A DNA stretch of 64,000 nt from Nocardioides renjunii (lineage in GTDB: Bacteria; Actinomycetota; Actinomycetes; Propionibacteriales; Nocardioidaceae), in NCBI RefSeq assembly GCF_034661175.1, contig NZ_CP141058.1:3968001-4032000 (forward strand), written 5' to 3'. Made by a program: the position numbers and the translations under genes. The notes beneath the pieces are model-generated. The model had not been told where the DNA came from and made no database searches. It saw nothing but the letters and a program-made list of their open reading frames with translations. Below, in pieces: positions 54,488 through 61,862 of the stretch (within the stretch, counting starts at the first letter, position 1; every line of letters starts with the position of its first letter).

Positions 54488-55390
54488 TCAGGCGGTCTCG
54501 CGGACCTCGACGACCTCGTGCCGCGGGATCGCGTTCTCGCCCCGGGCCGAGCAGGTGAGCAGGTGCGGCTCCTCACCGAGCACCCGGCGTACGACGACCT
54601 TCCGCACCCCGTGCCCGACGGCGTCGAGCCTGGTCGTCGTCAGGTCGCCGTCGGCGCGGGCGCCGAGGACACGGACGTCGTCGAGGCCGACCAGCCCGAG
54701 CGAGCGGCGCAGCGCGACGTCGGCGGCCTGCACGGCCATCGGCAGGTCGGAGCGCCCGCGGAGGTGGTCGAGCAGGAGCTCGCCGGACGCGGTCGCTGCC
54801 GCGACGGCGGGTCCGGTGTCGGCGTCCAGGCCGCCGTAGTAGAGGCCCCGCGGCAGCACGACGACGTTGCCGGCGAACCGGTCGCCTCCCACGTGCGAGG
54901 ACTCCCAGACCTGGTCGGCGTGCGGGCCGTCGGCCAGTGCCCGCGCGAGGGGGCGGCCGAGCTCGGCGCAGCAGGCGTCGTGGCGGCCGTGGGTGCACAC
55001 CGCGAGCACCGGCGCAGCCTGGGGCTCGAGACCCGGCGAGCGGCCGGCACCGAGCGCGGCCAGGTCGAGGTCGGCGACGTCGTCGACCCGGTCGAGCGCC
55101 GCCGTCTCCAGCCAGGAGCCCGCTCCGGCTGAGCGGGCGGCGAAGACGCGGGTGGTCCCGCCGTCCTGCTGCCGGCCGGGGCGACGGACGAGCAGGACCC
55201 GCACCCGGTGGCGGCGCGCCTGGTCCCGCAGGTGGGCTCCGACACCCTCGGGCAGGCGGGCGTCGCGGAGGGCGTCGCTGCCCCACGGGCCGCCGCGCTC
55301 CACCAGGAGCCAGCTCCGCACCGTCGAGGCGGTGCCGGCCAGCTCGTCGCCGCGGGCGCGACTGGCGACCGCACAGCGGAACGCGGTCAC
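54488..55390 (-). CDS. Sucrase/ferredoxin-like family protein (copy 2)
   Basis: Protein of 300 residues of the Suc_Fer-like family, whose C-terminal part is a thioredoxin-like ferredoxin fold. Motifs: WLLVERGGPWGSDAL near the N-terminus, VCTHGRHDACCAELGRPLA with Cys residues that could hold a [2Fe-2S] cluster, and SSHVGGDRFAGNVVVLPRGLYYGG. A second, independent copy lies at 56904. The GTG at 55390 overlaps the JmjC gene stop (GTGA). It may supply electrons or bind iron for the neighbouring oxygenase; inference. Confidence 0.82.
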   Translation of the reverse strand: MTAFRCAVASRARGDELAGTASTVRSWLLVERGGPWGSDALRDARLPEGVGAHLRDQARRHRVRVLLVRRPGRQQDGGTTRVFAARSAGAGSWLETAALDRVDDVADLDLAALGAGRSPGLEPQAAPVLAVCTHGRHDACCAELGRPLARALADGPHADQVWESSHVGGDRFAGNVVVLPRGLYYGGLDADTGPAVAAATASGELLLDHLRGRSDLPMAVQAADVALRRSLGLVGLDDVRVLGARADGDLTTTRLDAVGHGVRKVVVRRVLGEEPHLLTCSARGENAIPRHEVVEVRETA

Positions 55391-56508
55391 CGGACGACCT
55401 CGAGCAGCCCTTCCCGCACCAGGCGCCGGCAGAGGACCAGGGCGCTCCCGGCGTCGAGCATGGTGAGCACACCGGGGCTGAGCTCGGCGTGCGCGGCGAC
55501 GTGCTCCAGCGCGGGACGCACGCGGGCCGGGACGCGCAGGACCCGGTCGCCGAGCAGGACCCGGACGCTGTCGCCGTCGTCGATCAGCTCGCAAGGGTGC
55601 CCCCGGCGCCGTCGCAGCCGGGTGTCGGCGTCGATCGTGCCCAGGGCGGCGCGGTCCAGCAGGGCCCCCGCCACGCGGGGCGGGCGGCTGCTGAGGAACC
55701 CGGTCGCCTGGTCGGTGGCCAGCACCGCGGAATCGAGACGTCGTACGGCGTCGGTGAGGGAGGTGAGCCGGTCGGTCAGGCCGTCGGCCAGCCGGGACGG
55801 GTCGTCGAGGTAGCCGGCCGGCAGGTGCTCGTCGGGGACCTGGGCGAGCAGGCGGCCGACCTCGCGGGTCAGCAGGCTGCGCCACGTGAGCTGGTTGATC
55901 CCGATGGTCAGGTGGAGGGAGACCTCCTCCTGCGCGCGGGCGGCGTGCGGCGTGCCCGTGGGGAGGTAGGCCACCACGCCGGGCTCGAGCAGCAGCTCGC
56001 CCGGACCACCGTCGCCGTGGATCTCCCAGAGCTTGGTGCCGTGGGTCTGCAGGACGAAGACGTCGTGGGAGTCGGAGTGGACCGCGAAGCCCTGCGCACC
56101 GGGCGGGGTCAGGTAGGCGTTGGCCTGGCACGGGTGGCCCAGCTCGAGCTCGAGCTCGGCGACGAGGTCGCCCACGGGCGTCCAGTAGCGCTGCAGCCCC
56201 TGCAGCACGATCGTCGCGCCCTCGTCGTGCAGCCCCATCAGCTTCACGGGGTCGACGAGGCCGGTGAGCGGCTTGCCCGCCAGGCTGCCGCCGCGCGTGA
56301 AGGCCGACTCGGGCAGCACCGAGCCGTTGCGGGCCACGCGCACCGCCGGCGCGCGGATGGCGGTCTCGGTGAGCAGGTGGTCGACGTGCGCCAGCGAGAG
56401 CACCCCGGCGCCGTGGCCGGGGTCGGTGCGGTGGACGTGGACACGCGACGCCCAGACCTTGTCGATGAAGGTCTGGGCGTCGCCCGTCAGCCGGTCGAGA
56501 GCGCTCAG
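55387..56508 (-). CDS. JmjC/cupin-type Fe(II)/2-oxoglutarate oxygenase (ROXA-like)
   Basis: Protein of 373 residues. The double-stranded beta-helix has FAVHSDSHDVFVLQ with the metal ligands His144-x-Asp146, LWEIHGDGGPGELLLEPGVVAYLPTGTPH with His188, and a helical C-terminus typical of ROXA-type ribosomal-protein hydroxylases. The family normally begins with a segment like DAQTFIDKVWASRVHVHRTDPG, which is present only if translation starts at a CTG at 56508, overlapping the upstream gene's TGA (CTGA). The first standard codon, GTG 56403, would delete it. Substrate unknown; the adjacent Asp/Thr-rich peptide is a candidate. Confidence 0.82.
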   Translation of the reverse strand: MSALDRLTGDAQTFIDKVWASRVHVHRTDPGHGAGVLSLAHVDHLLTETAIRAPAVRVARNGSVLPESAFTRGGSLAGKPLTGLVDPVKLMGLHDEGATIVLQGLQRYWTPVGDLVAELELELGHPCQANAYLTPPGAQGFAVHSDSHDVFVLQTHGTKLWEIHGDGGPGELLLEPGVVAYLPTGTPHAARAQEEVSLHLTIGINQLTWRSLLTREVGRLLAQVPDEHLPAGYLDDPSRLADGLTDRLTSLTDAVRRLDSAVLATDQATGFLSSRPPRVAGALLDRAALGTIDADTRLRRRRGHPCELIDDGDSVRVLLGDRVLRVPARVRPALEHVAAHAELSPGVLTMLDAGSALVLCRRLVREGLLEVVR

Positions 56509-56756
56509 AGCGCGGTCCCGTCCGTGCCGTCGGCGTCCGTGGAGTCGCTGTCGGTCCCGTCGGCGTCCGTGCCGCCGGCGTCCGTGCCGTCGGCGTCGGT
56601 CGAGTCGCCGTCGGTCGCGTCGGTGGAGTCACCGTCCGTCGCGTCGGCGTCCGTGCCGTCCGCGTCGGTGCTCGGGCCTGCCGCCACACCGGTGGGGTCG
56701 ACGCCCTCGGTGCTCATCTCGTCGTCGCCGAGCGGGTTGTCAGGAGTCGTCGTCAT
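56505..56756 (-). CDS. Asp/Gly/Thr-rich repeat peptide
   Basis: Protein of 83 residues. The N-terminus (MTTTPDNPLGDDEMSTEGVD) is of mixed composition; residues ~34-80 repeat [DG]-x-[TS]-D-[AS]-D-G-T units. It is very acidic, with no Cys, Lys or Arg after the start. It is the first gene of a three-gene overlapping run (peptide, JmjC oxygenase, sucrase/ferredoxin-like). It could be a Ca-binding or disordered protein, or the substrate of the oxygenase; Asp beta-hydroxylation is an attractive but untested idea. The ATG at 56756 has AGGAGG just upstream (CGAGGAGGATCC). Confidence 0.65.
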   Translation of the reverse strand: MTTTPDNPLGDDEMSTEGVDPTGVAAGPSTDADGTDADATDGDSTDATDGDSTDADGTDAGGTDADGTDSDSTDADGTDGTAL

Positions 56757-56903
56757 GGATCCTCCTCGTCTGCCCGGGCGGACCGTCCGTCCCGGGTTAC
56801 GCGTCGAGTCTGGTGCTCGCCGCTTCCACCGTCCCACACCCCGCGGGGCGGGGTCACCGGGCCGTCCAGCGGTCAGCCAGGGCAGTCGGATCAGGCAGGC
56901 GGA

Positions 56904-57671
56904 TCAGGCGGTGCGGACCTCGTAGCGGGTGGTGCCCTTGACCTTGTCGTCGCCACACGACTGGCGGCGTGCGGGGCCCGGCACCGCCACCACCTCGTCT
57001 TCGGGGTGGCCGCCACCGATGAGGTGCAGCTCGCGCACCTGCTCCGTCCCGGACCGGCCCGCGCGGCCACGCACCCACGGCACCGGGACCTCGCCCCGCT
57101 CGACCGCCTCGCACACGGCCAGCGCGGTGTCCGGGTCCAACCGGCCCAGGGTCAACCCGCTCGGGAGCGCCAGGAGCGTGCCGGAGAACCGGTGCCCGCC
57201 CAGGTGCGTCGTCTCCCAGGTCCCCTCGGGCCACCGCTCGGTGAGCCGTCCGGCGATCGGCCGGCCGATCTCGGCGCAGCACCGGTCGCGCTTGCCGTTG
57301 GTGCAGACCAGCCAGAGCGGGCCGTCGTACGCCGTGAGGGCCGCGGGGTCGCGCAGGAGGGACGGCTCGAGGAGGTCCTCGGGCCGGTCGAGCACCGCGG
57401 TACGGACGTCGTAGCCGCCCTCGGTCGCCCGCGCCCGGTAGACGCGCGTGCCGGGGCCGGCGCTGCCGTCGCAGCGGCGCACCAGCAGGACCTTGGCCTC
57501 GAGCGAGGCCAGGTGGTCGCGCACCAGTCCGGGGAGCCGGTTGTCGGTGACGGCGTCGCGTCCCCACGGCCCGGGTGCCTCGACCAGCAGGATGTCGGTG
57601 TCGGTGGGCGCCGTGCCGGCGATGGGCTCGGCGTCCTCCACGCTGGCCGAGGAGCACCGGAAGTCAGGCAT
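56904..57671 (-). CDS. Sucrase/ferredoxin-like family protein (copy 1)
   Basis: Protein of 255 residues, same family as the protein at 54488: ILLVEAPGPWGRDAV, LVCTNGKRDRCCAEIGRPIAG with the Cys trio, and TTHLGGHRFSGTLLALPSGLTLG. The shared motifs mark both as the thioredoxin-like [2Fe-2S] type, but the sequences differ clearly, so this is not a recent duplication. It lies 147 nt before the Asp-rich peptide gene and could belong to the same module. Function in the family is poorly known. Confidence 0.8.
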   Translation of the reverse strand: MPDFRCSSASVEDAEPIAGTAPTDTDILLVEAPGPWGRDAVTDNRLPGLVRDHLASLEAKVLLVRRCDGSAGPGTRVYRARATEGGYDVRTAVLDRPEDLLEPSLLRDPAALTAYDGPLWLVCTNGKRDRCCAEIGRPIAGRLTERWPEGTWETTHLGGHRFSGTLLALPSGLTLGRLDPDTALAVCEAVERGEVPVPWVRGRAGRSGTEQVRELHLIGGGHPEDEVVAVPGPARRQSCGDDKVKGTTRYEVRTA

Positions 57672-58883: not shown

Positions 58884-61862
58884 TCAGAGCAGTCCGCGAC
58901 GCCTCGCCACCGCGGCCGCCTCGGTGCGCGAGGCGGCATCGAGCTTGGCGAGGATGTTGGAGACGTGCACCGAGACGGTCTTGGTGCTGATGAAGAGCTG
59001 CTTGCCGATCTCGCCGTTGCTCCGGCCCTCCGCGACGAGCGCGAGGATCTCGCGCTCCCGCGGGGTGAGCACCGTGTCGTCGCCGGCACCCGTGGCCGGC
59101 GCGGGCGCGGACCCCAGCGCGGTGAGCTCGGCGAGCAGCGCGGTGGCGCGCATGGCGTGGGCGGACGCGCGGGCGAGGTCGGCCACCTCCCGGGCACCCG
59201 GGGCGTCGCCCGCCGCGCGGAGCACGCCGGCGAGGCGGACGCGGGCCTGCGCGACCTCGGGCACGCTGCCGTAGGCGACCGCCGTCTCCTCGGCCGAGCG
59301 CCACGCGGCGACCAGCTCGTCGCTGCTGGGCGGGTCGACCTGAGCGAGCCAGCGCCAGCGGAGGTGCTCGGCGCTGCGGCGGGCCACCCACATCCGGTAT
59401 TCGGGGCCGTGGCTGCCGTCGTAGGGGGCGTAGAAGTCGATGACCCGCCCGCCGTCGGACATCATCCGCTCGACGTCGGCGCGGGCCGCGTCGCGCTCGT
59501 CGGCGGACTGGTGCGGCGCCGCGTTGGCGAGGGCGCCGACCACGAGGGTGGCGAGGCGCAGCCGGGCCTGGAACCAGTCGTGCCACAGGGGCACGACGGT
59601 GGCGACCACCTCGTCGTAGACCGCGACCGCGCCCGCCGCGTCGCCGCGCGCGGCCGCCCGCATCAGCTCGGCGCTGCCGGCCGAGATCGCGGTCAGGCCG
59701 TCGGTGCCCCAATAGTCGCGGAGCCGGTCGAGGGCCTTGCCGTGGTCGTCGCCGCGGATGCCGATGCAGATGAGCATCTGGTGGGCGAAGTAGAGCCACT
59801 CGAAGACCATCGGCGGGTTCTGCCCGCTCACGTCGAGCAGGTCCCACGCCTCGTCGAGCCGGCCCTGGTGGGTGAGCGCGACGGCGAGGAGGAGCCGCGA
59901 CTCGGCGGGGTAGGGGGACCACGTCAGGCCGCCGACCTCGCTGCGCTCGATCACCTCGCGGTAGACCTCGACCGCCCGGTCGAGGTCGCCCTCGTCCTGG
60001 TGCAGGCGGCCGAGCAGGTAGAGCGCGCGGAGCTCGGGCTCGATGAGGCCGGCCCGGCGGGCGCGCTCGGCCGCCGCCCGCCAGCCGGCGCTGGGGCTGG
60101 CGCTGCCGTCGGGGTCGAGCCCCGCGACGGTGGTGTGCAGCTCGACGGCCAGGCTGGTGAGGTCGTTGCGCTCGGCGATCTCGAGCGCCTGCACGGCGAT
60201 GGCCCGCGCCTCGTCGGCGTGCCAGCCGCCGAGGCTCTGGGCGTGCACGAGCAGCGCGCGGGCCAGGAGCTTGGGTGGCGCGCCGCGCAGCAGCTCGACC
60301 GCCTCGGCCGCAGTCTCGCGCGGCGAGTCGGTGGTGTCGGTGAGCAGCAGCGCCGAGGCGAGCGCCGTGAGCAGCTGCCCACGCTCGATCTCGGCGCCCT
60401 CGGTGGGCAGCGTCGCCAGGCGGGCCCGCAGCACCTTGACCGCCTTGTGCACCCGGCCGGAGGCGACGAGCGCCTCCGCGCAGCGCCGGGCCAGGGCCAG
60501 GACGTCCACGTCGGTCACCGGCACGCGGGCGGTGTCGACGAGCTCGAGCGCGTCGAGGAAGTGGGTGGCGGCCTCCGAGGGGCCACCCACGGCCAGCGCC
60601 TCCTCGCCCGCCTCGATCGAGGCGCGGATGGCGACGGGACGGTCGTCGGCGCGACGCGCGTGCTGCGCGAGCTCGGCGGCGGTGCCGACGGCGCGGCCCT
60701 CCCCCAGCGCGGCGACGAAGTCGGCGTGGAGCCGCATCCGCTCGCCGGGCAGCAGGTCGTCGTAGACCGCCTCGCCGAGCAGTGCGTGGCGGAAGGCGTA
60801 GGTGCCGCCGCGGGAGGCGACCAGGACGTGCGACTCGACGGCGTTGCGGAGGGCGGTCTCGAGCTCGGCGGCGCCGAGGTCGGAGACCGCGGCGAGGAGG
60901 CCGTGGCTGACCTGCCGGCCCGCCACCGAGACGATGCGGACCACCTTGCGCGTCGTCTCGTCGAGCCGGTCGAGGTGGACCAGCAGGACGTCGGCGAGCT
61001 CGCCGGGCACCTGGCCGGACCACGACGCGCCGACGAGCTCCTCGATGAAGAACGGGTTGCCCTCGGCGCGGTCGACGATGGAGGCGTATTCCGCCTCGGA
61101 CATCGTCGAGGGGTGCAGCGCCTTCACGAGGATGCGGACGTCGTCGTCGGCGAGCGGCTCGACCTGGAGCCGGTCGATGCCGCGCATCCGCATCCACTCC
61201 GCGACCTGGCGGCGGAGCGGGTGGCGGCGGTGCAGGTCGTCGGCGCGGTAGGAGACGACCAGCGAGACGCCCGGGACCGGGCGGGAGAAGAGGAAGCTGA
61301 GCATGTCGCGCGTGGACTCGTCGGCCCAGTGGGCGTCCTCGACGATCACGAGGAGCGGCGCCTGCCCGGCGACGGCGGAGAGGAGGTCGCCGAAGGCGTC
61401 GTAGACGTTGCCGCGGTCGAGGGCCTGGTCGCCCGACGCGGTCTCGCTGCTGCGGATGCGCCGGCCCGGCTGGAGGCGGGCGAGCGTGGGGTGCTGCTCG
61501 AGGACGCGAGCGGCGACGTCGGGCTCGTCGGCCATCATCCGGCCGAGCACCTCGGAGAAGGGGAGGTAGGGCAGGGAGCTGTCGGCGAGGTCGAGGCAGT
61601 GGCCGGCGACGACCTGCCAGCCGGCCTCGAGGGCGACGTCGCGCAGCGCCATCAGCACCCGGGTCTTGCCGACACCGGCGTCGCCGGCGACGAGCATCGC
61701 GCGCACCGTCCGGTCGGCTCCGGACGTGCGAATGCCGAGCTGGGCGGTGAGTTGCTCCAGCTCGGCATCGCGTCCGATGAGATCGGTGGTCCGCAGGGCC
61801 GGCACGGACGACATTGTGTCGTGCCGCTCCGACATCGGCGGGTCGATCGCGGTGCGGGTCAC
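58884..61862 (-). CDS. Large LuxR-family (LAL) transcriptional regulator with ATPase domain
   Basis: Protein of 992 residues. An N-terminal STAND-type ATPase: IGRDAELEQL, Walker A GDAGVGKT (60-67), Walker B LLVIVEDAHWAD, and FVVSYRADD-like sensor (here LVVSYRADDL). A long TPR-like helical middle follows (about 330-900), and a C-terminal LuxR helix-turn-helix (LTPREREILALVAEGRSNGEIGKQLFISTKTVSVHVSNILAKL). LAL proteins activate genes on sensing a ligand through the TPR region. The GTG at 61862 overlaps the stop of a 38-residue upstream gene (GTGA), which supports this start over internal ATGs. Target genes unknown. Confidence 0.92.
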   Translation of the reverse strand: MTRTAIDPPMSERHDTMSSVPALRTTDLIGRDAELEQLTAQLGIRTSGADRTVRAMLVAGDAGVGKTRVLMALRDVALEAGWQVVAGHCLDLADSSLPYLPFSEVLGRMMADEPDVAARVLEQHPTLARLQPGRRIRSSETASGDQALDRGNVYDAFGDLLSAVAGQAPLLVIVEDAHWADESTRDMLSFLFSRPVPGVSLVVSYRADDLHRRHPLRRQVAEWMRMRGIDRLQVEPLADDDVRILVKALHPSTMSEAEYASIVDRAEGNPFFIEELVGASWSGQVPGELADVLLVHLDRLDETTRKVVRIVSVAGRQVSHGLLAAVSDLGAAELETALRNAVESHVLVASRGGTYAFRHALLGEAVYDDLLPGERMRLHADFVAALGEGRAVGTAAELAQHARRADDRPVAIRASIEAGEEALAVGGPSEAATHFLDALELVDTARVPVTDVDVLALARRCAEALVASGRVHKAVKVLRARLATLPTEGAEIERGQLLTALASALLLTDTTDSPRETAAEAVELLRGAPPKLLARALLVHAQSLGGWHADEARAIAVQALEIAERNDLTSLAVELHTTVAGLDPDGSASPSAGWRAAAERARRAGLIEPELRALYLLGRLHQDEGDLDRAVEVYREVIERSEVGGLTWSPYPAESRLLLAVALTHQGRLDEAWDLLDVSGQNPPMVFEWLYFAHQMLICIGIRGDDHGKALDRLRDYWGTDGLTAISAGSAELMRAAARGDAAGAVAVYDEVVATVVPLWHDWFQARLRLATLVVGALANAAPHQSADERDAARADVERMMSDGGRVIDFYAPYDGSHGPEYRMWVARRSAEHLRWRWLAQVDPPSSDELVAAWRSAEETAVAYGSVPEVAQARVRLAGVLRAAGDAPGAREVADLARASAHAMRATALLAELTALGSAPAPATGAGDDTVLTPREREILALVAEGRSNGEIGKQLFISTKTVSVHVSNILAKLDAASRTEAAAVARRRGLL

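Follow-up and report, generated by a model that had tools for sequence, protein, structure and literature searches.

Why does a gene for a short aspartate-rich repeat peptide stand directly ahead of an oxygenase gene, and do the two products act as substrate and enzyme? The question is posed by a three-gene run on the minus strand of the Nocardioides renjunii genome (4.40 Mb, single contig, NZ_CP141058.1), analyzed within a stretch of 64,000 nucleotides (nt; positions 3,968,001 to 4,032,000), hereafter called the window. From position 56756 to 54488 of the window, the run encodes a repeat peptide, then a JmjC_2 oxygenase and then a Suc_Fer ferredoxin-like protein. A first-pass annotation had suggested that the oxygenase hydroxylates the peptide. 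Our comparisons favor a minimal module resembling those for ribosomally synthesized and post-translationally modified peptides (RiPPs), in which the JmjC oxygenase would hydroxylate the repeats of its dedicated peptide (probability about 0.6). That the peptide is a substrate of the oxygenase, by whatever chemistry, appears quite likely from the genome comparisons. The run has the following features:

56505..56756, minus strand: gene of the acidic repeat peptide, the predicted precursor (83 amino acids, ATG start), with conserved leader, repeat array and Shine-Dalgarno sequence
56761..56766, minus strand: Shine-Dalgarno sequence AGGAGG of the peptide gene
56709..56732, minus strand: leader motif LGDDEMST, residues 9-16 of the peptide (L9, D11 and T16 invariant in 18 aligned peptides)
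56517..56669, minus strand: repeat core, residues 30-80 of the peptide, with units such as TDADG, TDGDS and TDA, from repeat finding and strain comparison
55387..56508, minus strand: gene of the JmjC_2 (PF08007) Fe(II)/2-oxoglutarate (2OG) oxygenase, CTG start proposed
55396..55617, minus strand: C-terminal winged-helix domain of the oxygenase, residues 299-372, with the strand/helix order of a RiPP recognition element (RRE) in the predicted model
54488..55390, minus strand: gene of the Suc_Fer-like protein (PF06999) with a thioredoxin-like ferredoxin domain, GTG start
54881..54997, minus strand: CX8C...HX3D motif of the Suc_Fer-like protein (C132, C141, H166 and D170); HX3D in module copies versus HX3H in orphans and Aim32

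Co-occurrence of peptide and oxygenase

Public genomes scanned with the window oxygenase yielded 52 loci (the genome_contigs set). The peptide lay upstream of the oxygenase in all 51 related loci with upstream DNA, 49 of them recognized by pattern and two (L044 and L047) by eye, and a Suc_Fer gene followed directly downstream in 52 of 52. In most loci the peptide ended within 50 nt of the oxygenase match or overlapped it, with a gap of about 160 nt in L010 and L034. A survey of 197 genomes of the family, in which the peptide was searched by profile (A3), revealed a close oxygenase in 78 genomes. These include G002 and G022, in which C-terminal fragments at contig ends were each followed by a 45-49% identical Suc_Fer, an arrangement that fits truncated close modules. 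The peptide profile matched 75 of the 78 genomes and none of the 119 others, among which 25 have a distant JmjC gene and no close one. The three genomes without a match (G101, G002 and G022) all have a contig end that cuts off the DNA upstream of the oxygenase. Peptide matches adjoined the oxygenase on the same strand in 75 of 76 cases, and the distance between the two matches ranged from overlap to about 260 nt. The metagenome-assembled genome G167 (contamination 6%) contained a second peptide copy alone (contig C183:4002-4187), without a close oxygenase match. Conservation of the peptide beside the oxygenase had been set beforehand as one point on which the proposal could fail; with its presence at 51 of 51 loci and the co-occurrence over 197 genomes, the proposal did not fail on it.

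The two genes also appear to have changed together. In a maximum-likelihood tree of 74 oxygenases, the window repeat type and the DGGA type fell into separate clades, apart from two mislabeled rows (L021 and L050) which a regular expression had placed in the DGGA group and which are TD-type by sequence. Repeat-type labels changed 8 times on this tree as compared to 33.4 times in shuffles, indicating that the repeat type largely follows the oxygenase tree. Because of the co-occurrence over 197 genomes and the tracking of the enzyme tree by the repeat type, oxygenase and peptide very likely form an enzyme-peptide pair. The trio as a whole is, judged by these sequence comparisons, a conserved and co-evolving module.

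Recurring neighbors were sought in 35 diverse loci among frames of at least 150 amino acids, taking the best-scoring of overlapping frames; this procedure recovered Suc_Fer in 23 of the 35, so its sensitivity was limited. The oxygenase was present in 35 of 35 loci, and a LuxR-type gene in 7 of 15 TD loci and 0 of 20 others. Otherwise only an antisense frame (four loci) and a dehydrogenase-like gene at varying positions (three loci) recurred. Within this sensitivity no further enzyme gene was seen to recur; as to a third enzyme, the loci were not scanned with a model of the ATP-grasp ligase that accompanies graspetides, RiPPs which are rich in Thr and Asp and sometimes multicore. As is typical of RiPP clusters, the gene of a small precursor whose leader is conserved and whose core varies stands beside a modifying enzyme.

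The repeat peptide

The peptide consists of MTTTPDNPLGDDEMSTEG, a short linker and the tandem units of the core. It contains 25 Asp and Glu residues and neither Lys nor Arg. Tandem Repeats Finder scored the array up to 160, the top of the window's 19 rows, and the repeat exceeds chance. Neither Pfam nor NCBIfam gave a family for the window peptide up to an E-value of 1. Up to E 10, NCBIfam had none for this peptide, six short neighbors of remote JmjC genes and one DGGADGGA peptide, and Pfam had none for the window peptide, two remote-JmjC neighbors, the DGGADGGA peptide and the L021 peptide.

Pairwise differences among 32 leader segments from 34 peptide genes numbered 390, 408 and 1232 at codon positions 1, 2 and 3. 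Because leader changes sit mostly at third codon positions, the peptide gene is, by this measure, a coding sequence under selection. Peptide length ranged from 57 to 100 residues among the 34, and the L040 peptide, which is not one of them, has 106. The variation of repeat number among strains that had been anticipated was found between the window and L003, a locus with an oxygenase 98% identical to that of the window, from a genome listed as the same species: one 15-bp unit (STDAD), extra in L003, is the sole difference across the whole peptide gene.

The earlier description as an Asp/Thr repeat peptide suits the window, where the array is composed of Asp, Thr and Gly, and does not carry over to the family. 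Nine of 50 class-level rows contain no Thr, and it is scarce or missing in DGGADGGA repeats. These repeats do not fit an EF-hand-like calcium-binding reading of DxDGTD, and that reading was dropped.

Peptides of the wider family

Profile searches covered 147 order-level, 394 class-level and 296 phylum-level genomes in overlapping sets and detected additional oxygenases. Sixty wider loci, mostly high-scoring ones rather than all matches, were read, one per genome except for two of G672; that genome has two family oxygenase genes (contigs C264 and C420) and possibly two modules. An automatic rule (at least 12% Asp in the last 60 residues plus a repeated 4-mer) detected an Asp-rich repeat peptide upstream in 54 of the 60 loci, and L109 and L110, which fail the rule, carry such a peptide by eye. 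Oxygenases of other families and classes of Actinomycetota, about 32-56% identical to that of the window, also adjoin Asp-rich repeat peptides. Most wider peptides retain the leader forms LxDD(D/E)(I/M)xT or LTDEDIxT. Their repeat units vary strongly, examples being DADGTDGDATD (the window type), EGPADGGASGTPGVQDGGADGGA, DADADSTD, ADGTDQGVAGGTYGPRDAS, EDDENLDAPGEHSQDTGDEP and DGGADGGA. Outlier repeats at the same operon place occur in L040 (3673-3993), L051 (3774-3989), L184 and L199 (SHGPADAPGSDTDASDG; DGVDAGPGP...; ADGTDQGVxGGTYGPRDAS; EDDENLDAPGEHSQDTGDEP) and represent useful natural variants. The share of Asp in the peptide tail reached 12% or more in all 51 close, 42 of 50 class-level and 18 of 19 other-class rows versus 6 of 24 remote-JmjC controls, some class-level loci being counted twice.

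The remote JmjC loci (about 27-34% identical) were meant as controls and showed no such tandem repeat by eye. In 13 of the 24, a short precursor-like peptide was seen upstream by eye, for instance MQEQQFDGDLMVAVEEITTERSRGDQPSDGGGTGRSDTNDGIR in L156, and on plasmid pSCL4 of Streptomyces clavuligerus MDDKKTSLEPDEIEVIPPVSTPDFVIADNDPSDPPIAIADPDPFDPVI adjoins a JmjC gene of 34.5% identity. At least three kinds of precursor-like peptides (GRSDTNDG ends, DPDPSD cores and a DSDGTDSSS end) were observed next to remote JmjC genes in L153-L170 and L242 (3769-3915). NCBIfam had no family for the six of these peptides that were scanned. Modifying peptides may be a long-standing function of these actinobacterial JmjC proteins.

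The oxygenase

The oxygenase matched JmjC_2 (PF08007) with an E-value of 1.6e-18. The HxD...H iron ligands noticed in the first-pass annotation are H145, D147 and H189; they are invariant in a 19-row alignment and in 74 aligned enzymes, as is K160 in the latter. The AlphaFold model (mean predicted local distance difference test, pLDDT, 89.3) matched NO66 end to end over residues 1-374 (4y4r; Z 27.3, root-mean-square deviation 5.5 over 360 residues), followed by MINA53 and YcfD. The earlier label ROXA-like thus describes the architecture correctly: the protein combines HxD...H and the conserved Lys in a JmjC_2 barrel with a winged helix, as ribosomal oxygenases (ROX) do. In the model, the C-terminal part is predicted to have strands at 299-328 and helices at 329-340 and 354-366, in the order of an RRE; it also aligns to NO66, and no PqqD match of Pfam was found in the oxygenase up to E 1.

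Three Arg residues distinguished enzymes linked to repeat peptides from the others: R108 (58 of 58 versus 4 of 16), R53 (57 of 58 versus 2 of 16) and R363 in the winged helix (57 of 58 versus 5 of 16), a contrast that may partly stem from the greater distance of the 16 control enzymes. These residues may contact an acidic partner.

The Suc_Fer-like protein

The product of the third gene matched PF06999 with an E-value of 2.3e-20. Its model (pLDDT 92.6) contains a domain resembling the thioredoxin-like [2Fe-2S] ferredoxin of Aquifex (1m2a and 1f37; probability up to 0.99, E only 0.06 to 0.2). The Cys motif and ferredoxin-like fold first read from the sequence were recovered as a CX8C motif and a predicted thioredoxin-like ferredoxin domain. 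In Aim32 the motif is CX8CXnHX3H, and its Cys and His coordinate the cluster (PMC8482512). The window copy has the CX8C of Apd1/Aim32 proteins and HX3D in place of HX3H.

HX3D was present in 52 of 52 genome_contigs loci, where a looser regular expression gave two off-target letters. Of 126 loci, 93 gave a motif match, 91 with D and two with C; this count includes some genomes twice, and the 33 loci without a match are mostly remote controls. Another set comprised 31 Suc_Fer loci, 30 from a class-wide search plus L002, of which 12 lacked a motif match. Matches with a JmjC gene in the locus had D in 12 of 13 cases, the exception being the window's orphan paralog. The six without JmjC in the locus were four H, one spurious and one D (G335, with the oxygenase on another contig). 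G750 has a D copy about 22 kb away, and G368 and G434, in which no repeat peptide was seen, have H copies.

The orphan paralog is a second Suc_Fer-like gene upstream (56904-57671, minus strand) which retains HX3H (HLGGHRFSG). Its close relatives occur upstream in only part of the close clade. The module copy may derive from it or work together with it.

Proposed pathway and points against it

In the proposed pathway, translation would yield a peptide with a conserved short leader and a long acidic repeat core. The leader would dock on the oxygenase, probably via the C-terminal winged helix of the predicted model, and the Fe(II)/2OG center would hydroxylate the core many times per chain, most plausibly at the β-carbon of Asp. 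As target residue Asp is nevertheless proposed tentatively, our confidence being lowered by the abundance of Gly and Ala in the cores. Ascorbate serves animal prolyl hydroxylases as reductant. By analogy, we guess that Suc_Fer keeps the oxygenase iron as Fe(II) by rescuing oxidized iron; such a reductant role is possible and somewhat doubtful. The resulting chain would be intrinsically disordered, hydroxylated and polyanionic. Metal binding, the simplest idea for a hydroxylated polyanion, is suggested with low confidence.

Several observations weigh against hydroxylation of a dedicated repeat peptide. In four of the 60 wider loci no repeat peptide was seen to accompany the oxygenase: the frame of L151 is acidic but lacks the repeat, and L107, L117 and L122 yielded no peptide. 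By group median, Gly and Ala are about as common in the cores as Asp, so that composition by itself does not single out Asp. The closest structural relatives (NO66, MINA53 and YcfD) hydroxylate ribosomal proteins at His or Arg, and an RRE-like fold is present in ribosomal oxygenases too and is not proof of leader binding. Neither a leader protease nor an exporter was observed repeatedly among the 35 loci, at the limited sensitivity given above; for this reason the chain may stay in the cell and not be released as a natural product. Two complete genomes, G381 and G473, contain the peptide and the oxygenase without a Suc_Fer match, as do G901 (93% complete) and G813 (81%). Because Suc_Fer is absent from the two complete genomes, its role would be at most accessory. 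The survey of genome context that had been recommended for the trio thus supported the linkage of peptide and oxygenase and not an obligatory ferredoxin-like partner.

Alternative explanations

The strongest competing explanation retains the peptide as substrate and changes the chemistry: Thr, Ser, Ala, Gly or leader residues would be modified, or the chain desaturated or cross-linked. 2OG oxygenases do more than hydroxylate, and to judge from the title of a paper cited in PMC12710340 (its reference 45), a 2OG dioxygenase reportedly performs macrocyclization in RiPPs. Core composition leaves room for such targets, with group medians of 17-40% Gly, 12-20% Ala and 6-8% Ser. Individual rows, however, contain as little as 2% Gly and 0% Ala, and 111 of the 120 have no less than 12% Asp. 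Hydroxylation of Gly or Ala would also be unusual. Asp hydroxylation of a RiPP precursor is, moreover, known for another enzyme class (PesHI; PMC13060819). We regard other chemistry as unlikely.

Alternatively, the peptide could be a binding partner rather than a substrate, a disordered acidic chain with a role in regulating, storing or shielding the oxygenase or the metal it uses. An obligate partner would equally produce tight linkage and co-variation, and the chain is a polyanion devoid of Lys and Arg. Yet close strains differ by a whole repeat unit, and the repeat sequence varies by clade while the catalytic residues never do, as expected of a substrate array; in addition, other JmjC enzymes act on RiPP precursors (PMC12257519). 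This explanation is improbable.

The small frame might instead be an attenuation or translational-coupling leader whose product is irrelevant, since it opens the run, shares 4 nt with the following gene and is dominated by few codons. We consider this very improbable and reject it for the third-position bias of leader changes, the lack of terminator-like sites between 54300 and 57800 and the existence of Thr-poor repeat types, some without any Thr; a similar leader motif also recurs in other classes, and the distance between peptide and oxygenase matches is variable. Least credible of all is an ordinary ROX acting on a ribosomal protein with the peptide as bystander, to which the top structural matches (NO66, MINA53 and YcfD) would point, since a bystander would not co-occur in 75 of 78 versus 0 of 119 genomes, and that no close enzyme was found in 119 of 197 family genomes would be odd for ribosomal housekeeping. 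The patchy spread (78 of 197) and the peptide linkage speak against a ribosomal substrate as the sole role.

Gene starts, upstream elements and neighboring genes

The 4-nt overlaps attributed to the run are firm for one junction. JmjC and Suc_Fer genes overlap by GTGA (55390-55387), and peptide and JmjC genes by CTGA (56508-56505) only if the oxygenase starts at CTG 56508. This start is proposed because the earliest ATG, GTG or TTG in frame lies at 56403, where a start would remove a conserved N-terminal segment; the oxygenase thus apparently begins at CTG 56508. Several more distant relatives have GTG or TTG at this position. An apparent CTG start was also observed in several close relatives.

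Further features upstream are:

56827..56842, minus strand: conserved element GGGGTGTGGGACGGTG, possible promoter or operator
56779..56789, minus strand: palindrome CGGACGGTCCG, between the GGGGTGTGGGACGGTG element and the peptide start
58884..61862, minus strand: AAA_16/GerE (LuxR-type) regulator, assigned by Pfam, a possible module regulator; other genes intervene in the window

Among 19 close-clade loci 18 contained the element core GTGTGGGA, as compared to 1 of 32 other loci and none of 51 control windows; a relaxed form of the palindrome occurred in 19 of 19, 1 of 32 and 3 of 51, respectively. A sigma-70 promoter scan gave no match, which is uninformative for an actinobacterium.

Six other genes near the window module, the second Suc_Fer aside, have relatives in 2 to 27 of the 52 loci, the LuxR-type regulator being the commonest. 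In 21 of 52 loci, and in 0 of 40 and 0 of 20 loci of two wider sets, a gene related to this regulator lies on the oxygenase strand with its end 200-1600 nt ahead of the oxygenase; these counts come from frames filtered by guanine-plus-cytosine content at codon positions, a filter that recovered Suc_Fer in only 16 of 72 loci. This gene may control the module in Nocardioides. PADLOC defense models did not match the peptide, the oxygenase or either Suc_Fer up to E 0.01, and a defense system was dropped as a candidate.

Meaning and comparison with known systems

If the favored hydroxylation of repeats holds, many actinobacteria make a hydroxylated acidic repeat polymer via a three-gene pathway, and a minimal JmjC-only branch would be added to ribosomal peptide biosynthesis. 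It would also bear on the relation of animal ribosomal oxygenases, which share the architecture and winged helix, to peptide-modifying enzymes. Since the repeat units change while the active site is constant, the family would offer a large natural set of substrate variants for JmjC recognition, and the HX3D motif of the ferredoxin could be tested as a novel set of cluster ligands. The broadest formulation, a phylum-wide peptide class of Actinomycetota with Asp repeats hydroxylated many-fold to polymeric hydroxyaspartate chains, a JmjC enzyme with built-in leader-binding domain and a Cys2-His-Asp [2Fe-2S] ferredoxin, is rather doubtful.

The first-pass annotation knew of no described system with this combination. 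A literature search, whose coverage left out most subscription journals, found no description of the trio or the peptides. A 2010 study by Iyer et al. on peptide-modifying dioxygenases is said to have predicted peptide substrates for bacterial JmjC proteins, and prior notice there is possible. The claim of novelty accordingly stands for the trio in the literature searched and not for the enzyme type, as JmjC action on RiPP precursors has been published (PMC12257519) and RiPP-like JmjC proteins have been mentioned (PMC12710340).

The oxygenase resembles NO66, MINA53 and YcfD in full-length architecture over model residues 1-374; it differs in being tied to a repeat peptide and in not being found in most genomes of its own family. 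Bregman et al. (2025) described PF08007 JmjC domains of fish and algae that are fused to RRE-like folds, and stated that bacterial homologs turn up in RiPP-like contexts (PMC12710340). Pfam family, RRE-type winged helix and context agree with the present enzymes, whereas the section concerned names neither a repeat peptide nor Suc_Fer, nor whether these enzymes were included. The third protein belongs with Apd1/Aim32 to the Suc_Fer-like family and has their CX8C as well as the first cluster-motif His, but module copies carry HX3D where those proteins have HX3H (PMC8482512). The multinuclear non-heme iron-dependent oxidative enzyme (MNIO) PesHI of nitrilobacillin biosynthesis likewise hydroxylates Asp of a RiPP precursor, but belongs to an unrelated enzyme class and acts on a single Asp without a repeat (PMC13060819). 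Comparable, too, are the JmjC protein BpmG and the cupin-like PbsQ, JmjC/cupin hydroxylases which act on ribosomal precursor peptides encoded nearby, of the biphenomycin type. They hydroxylate ornithine after the action of an MNIO and an arginase (PMC12257519), whereas in the present loci no modifying enzyme other than the oxygenase was seen to recur, and the core consists of extended Asp-rich repeats.

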